Source: Acidimicrobiales bacterium
GTDB taxonomy: Bacteria; Actinomycetota; Acidimicrobiia; Acidimicrobiales; AC-14
Direction: 5' to 3'
DNA: 32,933 nucleotides
Assembly (NCBI GenBank): GCA_025463925.1
Contig: JAODBK010000050.1
Location: forward strand, 1-32,933
The stretch's first letter is position 1; every line of letters begins with the position of its first letter. Made by a program: the position numbers and the translations under genes. Shown piece after piece: positions 12,299-16,776 of the stretch. The notes below the pieces were generated by a model. The model did not search any database. It saw only the letters and a program-made list of their open reading frames with translations, and was not told the DNA's origin.

Positions 12299-12304
12299 TA
12301 CCGT
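12299..12304 (+). promoter_or_regulatory. -10 hexamer TACCGT, leaderless promoter of the kinase gene
   Basis: TACCGT occupies -12 to -7 relative to GTG 12311, with six bases between and no Shine-Dalgarno. It lies in the 20-nt gap after degV, giving the kinase-sigma-anti-sigma group its own transcript. Confidence 0.5.
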
Positions 12305-12310
12305 GGACCG

Positions 12311-13804
12311 GTGCCCGATGCCGCGCCCCGCATCGCCACCGACTGCGTCCTCATCGACCGGTACCGCCTCGTCCGGCTGATCGCGCAGGGTGGCATGGCC
12401 CAGGTGTGGGAGGGCCACGACCCGGTGCTCGACCGACCGGTCGCCGTCAAGATCCTCCACCCGCATCTCGCGGCCGACGACGCGTTTCTCGAGCGCTTCC
12501 GGCGCGAGGCGGTGGCCGCTGCCAAGCTGGCCCATCCCAACGTCGTGGCGACCTACGACACCGGTGTCGACGGCGGCCTCGCGTTCATCGTGATGGAGCT
12601 GGTGCGCGGCCACACCCTGCGGGACGAGCTGGGTCGCGGCCCGTTGACGCCCGGCCGCAGCGCGTACATCGCGGCCGAGGTGGCCGACGCCCTCGAGTAC
12701 GCCCACCAGGCAGGGATCGTCCATCGCGACGTGAAGCCGGCCAACATCCTGCTGTGCGACGACGGGCGCGTGAAGGTCGCCGACTTCGGCATCGCCAAGG
12801 CGGCGTCCGTCGGTCGTGACCTCACGCAGACCGGCGCGCTGCTCGGCACCGCCAAGTACCTGTCACCCGAGCAGGTGGACGGCCAGCCACAGGACCGCCG
12901 GTCCGACGTCTACGCCCTCGGAGTGGTGCTCTACGAGATGCTCTGCGGTCGGCCACCGTTCACCGCCGAGACCGAGATGGCCATCGCGCTCGCCCACCTC
13001 CGCTCCGAGCCCATGAGCCCGCGACGGGTGCGGGCCGGCGTCCCCCGGCCGCTCGAAGCCGTGGTGCTGCGAGCCATGGCGAAGTCACCCGTCGACCGCT
13101 TCCAGACCGCGGCCGACTTCTGCATCGCGCTGCGGTCGGTGGACCTCGGTGACGACGACGCGGTGCCGATGGTGACGCGCGATCCCACGCCGCCGTCGGG
13201 GATCACGCCGTCGTTCGCGCAGACCGAGCGGTCGTGGCTCGTGCCAGTCGTGGCGATCGTCGTCGTCATGATCGTGCTCGGGGCGATCGGCGTGGTGGTC
13301 GCGCGCACCCCCACCGGCAGCAGCCTCCTGCATGGCGGAGGCGGAGGCGCAGCATCGAGCAGCACATCGGGCGGACCGGCGATCGCCATCGCTTCGGCCA
13401 AGGCGTTCGATCCGCCACCCGGCGACGGGGTCGAGCACGACGGCGACCTCCACAACCTGTTCGACGGCAACCCGCAGACGACGTGGGAGACGCAGTCGTA
13501 CGCGAGTGCCCGGTTCGGCGGTCTGAAGGACGGCGTCGGATTCGTCCTCACCCTCGGTACGCCCACCAAGCTCAATCACCTGAAGTTGACGACGCCGTCG
13601 CGCGGATGGAGCGGCCAGGTGTACGTCGCCGACGGCCCGAAGGCGAGCCTCGCCGAGTGGGGCCAGCCGGTGGACTCGAAGACCGGCATCTCGGGCGGGG
13701 TGACGTTCGACCTCAAGGGCTCGACCGGTGCGGTCGTCCTGGTGTGGATCACCGAGCTCGGGAGCAGCGGGTCGGTGGCGGTCGGCGAAGCGACGCTCAC
13801 GTAG
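12311..13804 (+). CDS. Transmembrane Ser/Thr protein kinase with extracellular discoidin-like domain
   Basis: The 497-residue protein has a Hanks-type kinase domain (about residues 18-277), a Thr/Pro-rich linker, one transmembrane helix (about 309-331) and a Gly/Ser-rich spacer. The outer domain (about 357-497) contains AKAFDPPPGDGVEHDGD, LFDGNPQTTWETQ and LNHLKLTTP, resembling F5/8 type C (discoidin) sugar-binding folds. Catalytic features are intact: VAVK with Lys47, HRDVKPAN with Asp140, DFG at 158-160, and GTAKYLSPEQ in the activation segment. It should therefore be active, unlike the pseudokinase region fused to MviN in mycobacteria, whose domain order (kinase-like, helix, outer domain) it otherwise matches. 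It likely senses wall or glycan state and phosphorylates envelope-synthesis proteins such as the CwlM-like protein; the target is inference. The GTG start fits a leaderless message. Confidence 0.93.
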   Translation: MPDAAPRIATDCVLIDRYRLVRLIAQGGMAQVWEGHDPVLDRPVAVKILHPHLAADDAFLERFRREAVAAAKLAHPNVVATYDTGVDGGLAFIVMELVRGHTLRDELGRGPLTPGRSAYIAAEVADALEYAHQAGIVHRDVKPANILLCDDGRVKVADFGIAKAASVGRDLTQTGALLGTAKYLSPEQVDGQPQDRRSDVYALGVVLYEMLCGRPPFTAETEMAIALAHLRSEPMSPRRVRAGVPRPLEAVVLRAMAKSPVDRFQTAADFCIALRSVDLGDDDAVPMVTRDPTPPSGITPSFAQTERSWLVPVVAIVVVMIVLGAIGVVVARTPTGSSLLHGGGGGAASSSTSGGPAIAIASAKAFDPPPGDGVEHDGDLHNLFDGNPQTTWETQSYASARFGGLKDGVGFVLTLGTPTKLNHLKLTTPSRGWSGQVYVADGPKASLAEWGQPVDSKTGISGGVTFDLKGSTGAVVLVWITELGSSGSVAVGEATLT

Positions 13805-13807
13805 CCT
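13802..13807 (+). promoter_or_regulatory. -10 hexamer TAGCCT overlapping the kinase stop codon
   Basis: The hexamer begins with the kinase TAG stop codon and occupies -12 to -7 relative to an in-frame ATC at 13814, the only plausible initiation codon at the expected N-terminus of the sigma factor. This is the same spacing as at 7093-7098 and 12299-12304. Confidence 0.4.
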
Positions 13808-13813
13808 CTTCGC

Positions 13814-14383
13814 ATCGACGAGCGCGGGGATCTCGACCTGGTCGCCGCGGCGAGGGCCGGTGACTCGACCTCGCTCGACACGCTCCTGCGCCGCCACTAC
13901 GACCGCATCCACGCGCTCTGCCGGCGGATGACCGGGTCCGACACTGACGCGCTCGACGCCGCGCAAGAGGCACTCATCGCCATCGTCCGCGGCCTCGACC
14001 GCTTCGACCAGCGCTCCGCGTTCTCGACGTGGGCCTACCGAATCGCCACCAACGCGTGCCTCGACGAGCTGCGCCGGCGGCGGCGGCGGCCGATCCCGAC
14101 CGAACCCGACGACGTGAGAGCCACCGTGCACGACGCCGCCGACGCGGTCACTGCCCGGATCGACGTCGATGCTGCGCTGGCCGGGTTGCCCGACGAGTTC
14201 CGCGTCGCCGTCGTGCTGCGCGACTTGTGCGGCCTCTCCTATGACGAGATCGCCCAGGCCGTCGACATCCCGCCGGGCACGGTGCGCTCCCGCATCGCCC
14301 GTGGCCGGGCCATGCTGGCCGACCGCTTCGGGAAACCGGAGTCCGGGAACCCGGCGCCGACGCTGGAGCGTCCAACCCCATGA
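13814..14383 (+). CDS. ECF RNA polymerase sigma factor (SigM position) with non-canonical start
   Basis: The product, 189 residues from ATC 13814, is a group 4 sigma factor. Region 2 runs from DLVAAARAGDSTSLDTLLRR through LDAAQEALIAIVRGLDRFD and FSTWAYRIATNACLDELRRR. Region 4 has LAGLPDEFRVAVVLRDLCGL, then SYDEIAQAVDIPPGTVRSRI and ARGRAMLAD. No ATG, GTG or TTG exists in frame between the kinase stop (13802) and ATG 13928; starting at 13928 would delete the first helix of region 2. Candidates are ATC 13814, at leaderless distance from TAGCCT, and CTG 13838. The frame is the same as the kinase frame, so amber readthrough is a formal alternative. The stop overlaps the anti-sigma ATG (ATGA). Mycobacterial sigM occupies this same position before trxB. 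Identity is sure; the start is unresolved. Confidence 0.88.
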   Translation: MDERGDLDLVAAARAGDSTSLDTLLRRHYDRIHALCRRMTGSDTDALDAAQEALIAIVRGLDRFDQRSAFSTWAYRIATNACLDELRRRRRRPIPTEPDDVRATVHDAADAVTARIDVDAALAGLPDEFRVAVVLRDLCGLSYDEIAQAVDIPPGTVRSRIARGRAMLADRFGKPESGNPAPTLERPTP

Positions 14384-15156
14384 TGTCGCCCCACCCCGAC
14401 GACGAGGCCCTGTCGGCCGCGCTCGACGGCGAGGACCCGGCCGCCGCCGGCCACGCCGCGAGCTGCGCCGACTGCCGCGCCCGGATGACGGCGCTGGCCG
14501 GGGCCGCGGCCCTCGTCGCCACCGTGGTGGCCCCGCCGGCGGAGCACGAGCGTGATCGGGCGGTCGCAGCCGCCATGGCCAACGCCGGCGACCGCGTCGT
14601 CGCGCCGCCGACGGCCGGCACCGACAGCCGCTGGCGTCCGGTCCTCGTCGCCGCGGCCGCCGTCGTCCTCGTGGTCGGGATCGTCGCGGGGGTCGCGTCC
14701 CTCTCGAGCGGCGGTTCGAAGCCGGCGACCACCGCGTCGCGGGCGCCGGCTTCGATCGGCAACGCCCAACCGCCGGCAGCCACCGCGAACGCCAGCGCGG
14801 GGTCGCTGAACGCGACATCGGCGCCCGCCGACCTCGGCGCCGTGCCCGACGAGGCCACCTTGCGTCAACGCCTGAACGACGCGCTGACGGCCCGGAAGTC
14901 CTCCGCCACCGGGGACTCCGCCGCCGGCAGCACCCAGGCGGCCCCGAGCGCGCTGGCGGCCAGCCAGTGCGAGGCGCCCGCCGTCCGGTCCGCCGGGCCG
15001 AACGCCCAGGTGGTCTTCCGGGCGACGCTGACCTACGCCGGCCAGCCGGCAGACGTCGTCGTCGTCAAGCCGGAGCCGTCGGCACCTCAGCTGCTCGCCA
15101 TCGTCACGGCTCGGTCGACGTGCTCGACGTTGGCGCGCGCGCCGGTCGGACCCTGA
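14380..15156 (+). CDS. Membrane anti-sigma factor with zinc-finger motif
   Basis: The 258-residue product is translationally coupled to the ECF sigma gene by a 4-nt overlap. Its N-terminal cytoplasmic part has His25, Cys29 and Cys32 in the H-x3-C-x2-C arrangement (HAASCADC) of zinc-binding anti-sigma (ZAS) domains. One hydrophobic helix follows at about 87-108 (VLVAAAAVVLVVGIVAGVASL), then an Ala/Ser/Pro-rich, low-complexity outer part and a final, more ordered segment with two cysteines (QCEAP and STCST), perhaps a disulfide-bonded domain. It should hold the sigma factor at the membrane until a signal releases it. The last 53 bases overlap the convergent small membrane-protein gene. Redox sensing is suggested only by the Cys residues and the nearby trxB-trxA. 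Confidence 0.88.
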   Translation: MMSPHPDDEALSAALDGEDPAAAGHAASCADCRARMTALAGAAALVATVVAPPAEHERDRAVAAAMANAGDRVVAPPTAGTDSRWRPVLVAAAAVVLVVGIVAGVASLSSGGSKPATTASRAPASIGNAQPPAATANASAGSLNATSAPADLGAVPDEATLRQRLNDALTARKSSATGDSAAGSTQAAPSALAASQCEAPAVRSAGPNAQVVFRATLTYAGQPADVVVVKPEPSAPQLLAIVTARSTCSTLARAPVGP

Positions 15157-15480: not shown

Positions 15481-15786
15481 ATGTCCGACTGGCCGGTCCA
15501 GACGACCGACAAGATCGTTCGCGCCGTCGACACGGTGCGGTCGAACACCTCCGACCGGCTCGTATCGGTGGCGCGTTGGCTGGTCTACGGCCTGCTGGCC
15601 GCCTTCATGGGGCTCACCGCGCTCGTGCTCGTCGCCATCGGGCTGGTGCGGCTCGTCGTGGTGTACGTCGAGAACGTCCGGGGCGTCGACCACGCCCGAG
15701 CCGTCTGGATCGCCGAGGCCGGGCTCGGCGCAATATTTGTGCTCTTCGGAATGTTGGCCTGGCTCCGACGCACTGCCCGCAAGTAG
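15481..15786 (+). CDS. Small two-helix membrane protein, unknown
   Basis: The 101-residue product has an amphipathic, charged N-terminus (KIVRAVDTVRSNTSDRLVSV), one transmembrane helix (WLVYGLLAAFMGLTALVLVA), a short loop with RGVDHARAV, a second helix (AEAGLGAIFVLFGMLAWL) and a basic end (RRTARK). I recognise no family with confidence; the layout is holin-like but so are many small actinobacterial proteins. ATG 15481 follows TAGGCT by 7 nt and has no Shine-Dalgarno, consistent with a leaderless message. The trxB gene begins 12 nt after its stop, so it probably heads the trxB transcript. Confidence 0.78.
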   Translation: MSDWPVQTTDKIVRAVDTVRSNTSDRLVSVARWLVYGLLAAFMGLTALVLVAIGLVRLVVVYVENVRGVDHARAVWIAEAGLGAIFVLFGMLAWLRRTARK

Positions 15787-15798
15787 CCGGAGGCACCC

Positions 15799-16776
15799 GT
15801 GCCCGACGTTCGTGACGTGATCATCATCGGGTCAGGCCCCGCCGGCCTGACCGCGGCGATCTACACCGCCCGGGCGAACCTCGCCCCACTCGTGATCGAG
15901 GGCGAGCCGTCGTCCACCACGGACCAACCTGGCGGCCAGCTGATGCTGACGACCGAGGTGGAGAACTACCCCGGCTTCGTCGACGGGATCCAGGGCCCCG
16001 AGCTCATGGACGCCTTCCGGAAGCAGGCAGCTCGGTTCGGCGCGGAGTACCTGACGGCCAAGGTGACGCGGGTCGACTTCTCGGTGCGCCCGTTCAAGTT
16101 GTGGATCGGCGAGGAGGAGCTGCCCACCCGCTCGGTCGTGGTGGCAACCGGTGCCCAATCACTGATGCTCGGTCTCCCCAACGAGCTCGAGCTGGTCGGG
16201 CACGGCGTCTCGACCTGCGCGACGTGCGACGGCTTCTTCTTCCGCGGCCACCCGATCGCGGTCGTCGGCGGAGGCGACTCGGCGATGGAGGAAGCGTTGT
16301 TCCTCACCAAGTTCGCCGACAAGGTGTCGATCGTCCACCGGCGCGACTCGCTGCGCGCCTCGAAGATCATGCAGGAGCGGGCGTTCGCCAATCCCAAGAT
16401 CGAGTTCGTCTGGGACTCCGTCGTCACCGGCCTGAAGGGCAAGGAGAAGCTCGAGGGCCTGCAACTCACCAACCTCAAGACCGGTGAGGAGTCGGACTTC
16501 GACGCCACCGGCTTGTTCGTCGCCATCGGACACGTCCCCAACACCGGGCTCTTCAAGGGCCAGCTCGAGATGGACGAGAACGGCTACCTCGTCACCCACG
16601 ACGGCTCGCGGACCAACGTCGACGGCGTGTTCGCGTGCGGCGACGTGCAGGACCACATCTACCGCCAGGCCATCACGGCCGCCGGTTCCGGCTGCATGGC
16701 CGCGATCGACGCCGAGCGCTGGCTCGAGAGCCAGCCACACGAGCACCACATCGAGCCGACTACCACCGACTGGTAG
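15799..16776 (+). CDS. trxB: Thioredoxin reductase
   Basis: This FAD enzyme reduces thioredoxin with NADPH in the cytosol. The 325-residue product has the FAD-binding VIIIGSGPAGLTAAIYTARA (about 7-26), the redox motif CATC at Cys140-Cys143 followed by DGFFFRG, the NADPH-binding VVGGGDSAMEEALFL with the 2'-phosphate-binding HRRDSLRAS, and FACGDVQDHIYRQAITAAGSG near the end for FAD. All catalytic elements are present and the length is standard for the low-molecular-weight class. GTG 15799 has GGAGG at 15789-15793. It follows the two-helix membrane protein by 12 nt and precedes trxA, as in mycobacteria, where the sigM-trxB2-trxC order is the same. Confidence 0.97.
   Translation: MPDVRDVIIIGSGPAGLTAAIYTARANLAPLVIEGEPSSTTDQPGGQLMLTTEVENYPGFVDGIQGPELMDAFRKQAARFGAEYLTAKVTRVDFSVRPFKLWIGEEELPTRSVVVATGAQSLMLGLPNELELVGHGVSTCATCDGFFFRGHPIAVVGGGDSAMEEALFLTKFADKVSIVHRRDSLRASKIMQERAFANPKIEFVWDSVVTGLKGKEKLEGLQLTNLKTGEESDFDATGLFVAIGHVPNTGLFKGQLEMDENGYLVTHDGSRTNVDGVFACGDVQDHIYRQAITAAGSGCMAAIDAERWLESQPHEHHIEPTTTDW

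Follow-up and report, generated by a model that had tools for sequence, protein, structure and literature searches.

The locus analysed here raises the question of how translation of an ECF sigma factor gene begins when its reading frame offers no canonical start codon ahead of the conserved domains. The sigma gene lies in a 32,933-nucleotide stretch of DNA (hereafter the window) from an Acidimicrobiales bacterium, and the genes of the locus, all on the forward strand, follow one another in the order kinase, sigma, anti-sigma-like and TrxB-like. The kinase gene (positions 12311–13804; PknB-like Ser/Thr protein kinase, Pfam Pkinase, E 3.4e-46) starts with GTG, which is preceded by TACCGT (12299–12304) and six further bases. 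The C-terminal part of the kinase (13430–13800) presumably resembles a discoidin (F5/8C)-type domain, as judged by eye; a Pfam search of this region at 1e-3 gave no match. The sigma gene (13814–14383) comprises 189 codons and a TGA stop, and its product contains Sigma-70 regions 2 and 4 (PF04542 and PF08281, Sigma70_r4_2), both above the Pfam cut-off; Sigma70_r2 covers residues 24–92, counted from the ATC at 13814, with E 8.7e-22. The best NCBIfam match of the protein is SigM (PRK09643), with 153.3 bits under a curated cut-off of 190, so we call it SigM-like on the basis of best match and gene order rather than a certified SigM. The ATG of the putative anti-sigma factor gene (14380–15156) overlaps the sigma stop codon (ATGA); its product resembles an NCBIfam antisigma model weakly (E 4.8e-5; 23.5 bits, cut-off 100) and gave no match in the Pfam search. 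The gene at 15799–16776 encodes a putative thioredoxin reductase-like protein (TrxB). It served as a downstream synteny marker: for 21 of the 25 named loci L031–L055, tblastn gave a TrxB match on the downstream side of the sigma gene. The mycobacterial cluster has the order sigM, anti-sigma, trxB2 and trxC. The present locus resembles it in the succession of sigma, anti-sigma-like and TrxB-like genes and in the best NCBIfam match of the sigma protein, and differs from it in the start codon and in the kinase gene that stands upstream.

Reading of the sigma frame together with the Pfam boundaries bore out the claim of an earlier note, made from the letters of the window, that this frame lacks ATG, GTG and TTG until position 13928. 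The ATG at 13928 is codon 39 from the ATC at 13814; starting there would remove the first 38 residues and, given that Sigma70_r2 begins at residue 24, would cost the first 15 residues of region 2. The same note placed the beginning of region 2 directly after the kinase TAG. This holds in part: the Pfam domain begins 23 residues past the ATC, while conserved sigma sequence is already recognizable from residue 9 (L9, A12, A13, G16, D17). The motif TAGCCT, a putative −10 box of the form TANNNT, does occupy 13802–13807, its TAG being the kinase stop codon (13802–13804), and the six bases 13808–13813 separate it from the in-frame ATC (13814–13816), as had been stated. The earlier note had offered a leaderless AUC start and amber readthrough of the kinase stop as explanations. 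With a probability that we put at about 80%, ATC 13814 is the start of the sigma gene, in leaderless form, and would thus be both the proposed start codon and the +1 position of the mRNA; this proposal is based on the pattern in relatives, a frame test and comparison with shuffled sequences.

When the sigma protein was used as the query, some ECF match at E ≤ 0.001, paralogs included, was obtained in 60/60 relatives, and 149 of 297 same-order genomes had a match at E ≤ 1e-42. We read 147 ortholog loci from 144 genomes (30 from the first search, a further 17 from the second, and 100 retrieved in addition), taken among the matches listed; G034 (truncated), G255, G190 and G168 lie outside this set, and G084, G251 and G254 are represented by two loci each, the second of which is probably a paralog. 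The ortholog segments were anchored on the conserved glycine 16, and the first scan was limited to codons −8 to −25. Within this range, a TANNNT box followed after six or seven bases (N6/7) by an in-frame ATC, ATT or ATA (collectively ATH) was present in 75/147 loci, as ATC in 71, ATT in 3 and ATA in 1, the spacing being N6 in 62 loci and N7 in 13. The remaining 72 loci, which show that the pattern is not universal in the order in the first range scanned, had ATG or GTG (RTG) at the box position in 6 cases, a canonical codon without the box in 58, and neither in 8. The comparison of this junction among relatives, which the earlier note had proposed as a check, thus strongly supports the leaderless AUC start. 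The ATH pattern was found in 27 of the 38 families of the order.

The pattern is tied to the sigma reading frame. At spacings of six and seven bases, ATC occurred 71 times in the sigma frame of the 147 loci and 0 times in the other two frames; when the scan was widened to codon −60, 84 loci had it in frame, as against 0 and 1 in the other frames. Counting of in-frame TANNNT-N6/7-ATH over codons −8 to −22 gave 72/147 loci, whereas 500 mononucleotide shuffles gave a mean of 0.7 and a maximum of 4, and 500 doublet shuffles a mean of 0.64 and a maximum of 3. The third base of the start triplet in the 62 N6 cases was C in 93%, T in 4%, A in 1% and G in 0%. We also defined a set of 56 forced cases among the 147 loci, in which an in-frame upstream stop is present and no canonical codon precedes codon −8; 51 of these carry the ATH pattern. 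Twenty of the 75 ATH loci also offer a canonical codon further upstream than codon −8, still within the open frame. A quick tree built from the sigma proteins gave 25 changes between ATH and other states; when the labels were shuffled 100 times, the mean was 49.6 and the lowest count 41. As judged from this tree, the ATH state appears to be inherited, yet lost or gained repeatedly.

Some loci depart from the common form. In G135 (locus L221) the junction reads TAGTGT-N6-ATC, and a GTG follows in the same frame two codons on. L010, L117, L127, L131 and L037 retain the box, as TAGGGT, and have CAA, GAC or ATC as the triplet at or close to N6, together with a near-leaderless ATG at codon −12. This group may represent an escape from the ATC form or its source. 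In L115, L139, L143 and L171, an in-frame TACGCT-N6-ATC lies 42–43 codons upstream of the anchor, and these loci perhaps encode an N-terminally extended sigma factor with the same type of start.

Outside the order, we read 42 distinct relatives, comprising 30 genomes of the same class but other orders (of 87 matching) and 12 named loci, the latter taken to lie outside the order because of their weaker TrxB matches (57–64% identity, as compared with 68–76%). ATH at the box was found in 0/42 of these relatives, and 23/42 had a canonical codon at N6/7 (19/30 and 4/12). The ratio of ATH to RTG at the box was 75:6 in the order and 0:24 outside it (Fisher p = 2e-18, uncorrected for relatedness), the latter becoming 0:23 by the same spacing rule. 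A second ECF sigma gene of the order provided a further comparison. The SigR/SigH-type paralog, assigned by best match to TIGR02947, whose cut-off was exceeded in 1/31 genomes, starts with ATG or GTG in 20/20 same-order genomes, and TANNNT-N6-8 directly precedes this start in 15/20. The genomes of this order therefore use a leaderless RTG for one ECF sigma factor and often AUC for the other.

We surveyed a genome sample of about 719 kb (the window, L228–L247 and L278–L297), in which 627 genes were called by our own codon-usage script, false calls such as antisense ORFs included. In 100/627 predicted genes, an in-frame ATG or GTG close to the predicted 5′ end followed immediately on TANNNT-N6-8, so leaderless starts are common in this genome. 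One ORF of the window, at 15481, has its ATG seven bases after TAGGCT. ATH after the box occurred as two ATC and one ATT (the sigma gene, L282 with ATC and L280 with ATT). Other codons occupied this position at background level, with no more than 5 cases each (most for GCC), and the sample also had one CTG, two TTG and two GTC. The two ATC cases lie within this codon background; the sigma gene thus stands out by its frame without a canonical codon and not by number. The ATC of L282 was rejected as a leaderless start, as it lies inside an ORF that looks glycosyltransferase-like by eye and a canonical codon precedes it by 8 codons. The L280 gene (G000:C1:78288-79304, minus strand), cyclase-like by eye, has TAGCGT-N6-ATT where its 5′ end appears to lie, with a canonical codon following 10 codons later, and its relatives share only 35–42% identity; it is a possible second leaderless start, with AUU. 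By these sequence features, the sigma gene appears as the only clear leaderless ATH case in the 719-kb sample, in a screen for genes without a canonical start that was insensitive, infC having been missed although its stretch (L287) was sampled. Base frequencies upstream of the box showed a weak T-T-C at −39 to −37. We did not retain it as a −35 element, since it lies far from the box and is possibly kinase coding sequence.

The position of the box at the end of the kinase gene bears on two other explanations, in which the sigma factor is made from a kinase-sigma transcript. The −10 box itself supplies the upstream stop, as its TAG or TAA 12 nt ahead of the ATC, in the window, in 4/17 ATH loci of L001–L030 whose upstream gene was confirmed as kinase by tblastn, and in 12/75 ATH loci by a cruder count, the window included. 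Such closeness would suit an AUC reached by termination and reinitiation after the kinase rather than on a leaderless mRNA. Across the 17 confirmed loci, however, the kinase stop lies anywhere from 12 to 102 nt upstream and in all three frames, and the box-to-ATH pattern exceeds the shuffled expectation about a hundredfold. Moreover, an upstream stop no more than 4 nt away from the start was found in 1/75 ATH loci as opposed to 22/52 loci with a canonical start (Fisher p = 2e-9, uncorrected for relatedness), the latter being an upper figure, as the overlapping canonical codon was preferred where several were possible. We regard reinitiation as unlikely. The contrast in stop proximity suggests instead that there are two arrangements, a canonical codon coupled to the upstream gene or the gene's own promoter with AUC; canonical sigma starts that overlap or abut the stop of the upstream ORF are seen in L118, L119, L132, L138, L167, L180 and others. 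Readthrough of the kinase TAG into a kinase-sigma fusion has in its favour that, in the window, this amber codon is in frame with the sigma gene. Among the confirmed loci, though, the kinase stop is TGA in 9, TAG in 6 and TAA in 2, and it shares the sigma frame in 8 loci but not in the other 9; the cruder count, covering the 74 of 75 ATH loci with a long upstream ORF, gave TGA 36, TAG 29 and TAA 9, of which 41 share the sigma frame and 33 do not. In addition, a box beginning with TAG or TAA at N6 spacing, as present in 35/75 ATH loci, necessarily gives the sigma frame a stop codon four codons ahead of the ATC. The identity and frame of the stop thus speak against the readthrough that the earlier note had considered: we judge it very improbable for the window, and the sequences do not support it as a conserved design.

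The remaining explanations take the ATC not to be a start codon. If it were merely the first transcribed triplet, the sigma factor could start at a downstream canonical codon, near −6 in some relatives and at ATG 13928 here. Shortened ECF proteins can exist, and 21/56 forced cases have their first canonical codon, a GTG or similar, at −7 to −5. In 29/56, however, there is no canonical codon before region 2, the first one lying at or inside Sigma70_r2 (in the other 6 it lies at +5 to +7). Moreover, the spacing between the ATC and the conserved block is variable (the ATC mostly at codons −14 to −21), yet the ATC keeps the frame, from which it follows that the stretch between them must be coding. 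This explanation appears to us slightly less probable again than reinitiation. The ATC might, finally, be a sequencing or assembly error for ATG, since the genome is a draft of 119 contigs; yet ATC is present in 71 loci, including the one-contig genomes G093, G135, G173 and G232, and the recurrence of the same feature in 74 other loci makes an isolated error very unlikely, to the point that we give it hardly any weight.

A leaderless AUC start therefore remains the explanation that we prefer, and the following mechanism can be proposed for it. The sigma gene would have a TANNNT promoter of its own, and its mRNA would open directly with the start codon AUC (rarely AUU or AUA); in the window we infer transcription to start at 13814, with AUC as the codon used. 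Because AUC would pair imperfectly with the initiator tRNA, a leaderless arrangement that is good with AUG or GUG would become weak and its yield lower. In a selection in Mycobacterium smegmatis, ATG or GTG at +1 was found necessary for leaderless translation (PMC4633059), by which measure AUC might be nearly silent. The sigma gene has the −10 box TANNNT at the 6–7 nt from the start by which leaderless genes are recognized, with ATC in place of ATG or GTG; it would thus work like a leaderless gene while breaking the codon rule. It shares the box and the distance with the 100/627 genes of this genome described above, and differs from leaderless actinobacterial genes in its ATC, as those start with ATG or GTG. 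The conservation of so odd a start suggests that it keeps the sigma factor low and controllable. The sigma/anti-sigma junction has an RTGA overlap in 63/75 ATH loci; an SD-like word precedes the overlapping anti-sigma start in 11/63, the window among them, and a TANNNT box at N6-8 in 0/63. As the anti-sigma start overlaps the sigma gene, mostly without an SD-like word or a TANNNT box, anti-sigma output should follow sigma output, and the AUC of the sigma gene would set the output of the whole pair.

The nearest precedent is sigR of Streptomyces, of which the sigma start described here may be a leaderless relative, as it may be of the noncanonical start of infC. According to PMC5472188, sigR has a GTC start and is repressed by IF3, the start being GTC in 32/34 Streptomyces and GTT in 2, and a change to a canonical codon makes SigR exceed RsrA. 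In common with sigR/RsrA as presented there, the present locus has an ECF sigma gene, an overlapping anti-sigma gene and a start other than ATG, GTG or TTG that is kept in the clade. The two differ in that sigR combines GTC with a strong AGGAGGTG leader (PMC5472188), whereas the AUC is here at the presumed 5′ end, and in that RsrA has its own promoter and RBS (PMC5472188). Unlike the GTC of sigR, the AUC should therefore scale the sigma/anti-sigma pair and not its ratio. By analogy with sigR, it is likely that the AUC holds the sigma factor low, and a limiting role of this start for the sigma level is plausible. IF3-repressed genes are recognized by a noncanonical start conserved in relatives, which was found here in 75/147 loci and 27/38 families, and by a Shine-Dalgarno leader before the weak codon; an SD-like word before the ATH was seen in 1/75 loci.

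In its AUU/AUC/AUA class of start, the sigma gene resembles infC, the case of IF3 autoregulation. The infC gene of this genome (L253, G000:C35:12455-12958 and upstream) starts with ATA after an SD-like leader. Among 30 infC loci (L248–L277), 3 of which were unreadable by the motif used, the start was ATA in 19 and ATC in 8 of the 27 readable loci; 2/27 also have an in-frame canonical codon in the 90 nt ahead of it. An SD-like word preceded the start in 24/27; unlike infC, the sigma gene has no such leader. Work on E. coli (PMC9031893) indicates that IF3 disfavours noncanonical sites and that raised levels of it inhibit some leaderless mRNAs, while at low concentration IF3 can stimulate leaderless translation in vitro. 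We infer that IF3, which discriminates against weak codons and is able to inhibit leaderless mRNAs, may set the sigma yield, and by this analogy the sigma and anti-sigma factors are possibly throttled through it. It is conceivable, though we advance this only tentatively, that the SigM-like stress switch responds to the state of the ribosome. Having both a weak codon and no leader, the sigma mRNA would then be doubly sensitive to IF3, and, as infC itself starts with AUA or AUC, IF3 and the sigma factor would form one small translational regulon. Should this be true, lower IF3 activity or more free 70S ribosomes under stress would raise the sigma factor and the coupled anti-sigma factor together, and the order would provide the first class of leaderless AUH starts to have been kept in evolution; our search of the open-licence PMC literature found no published leaderless AUC, AUU or AUA start.

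This sigma regulator will be truncated or missed by gene finders restricted to ATG, GTG and TTG starts. The locus contrasts with the conclusion from mycobacteria that leaderless mRNAs require a 5′-terminal AUG or GUG, and offers a natural comparative test of start-codon recognition without a leader and of the role of IF3 in it. The retention of AUC in 27 of 38 families, beside canonical leaderless genes, would mean that the codon of a leaderless mRNA can differ when low output is wanted.
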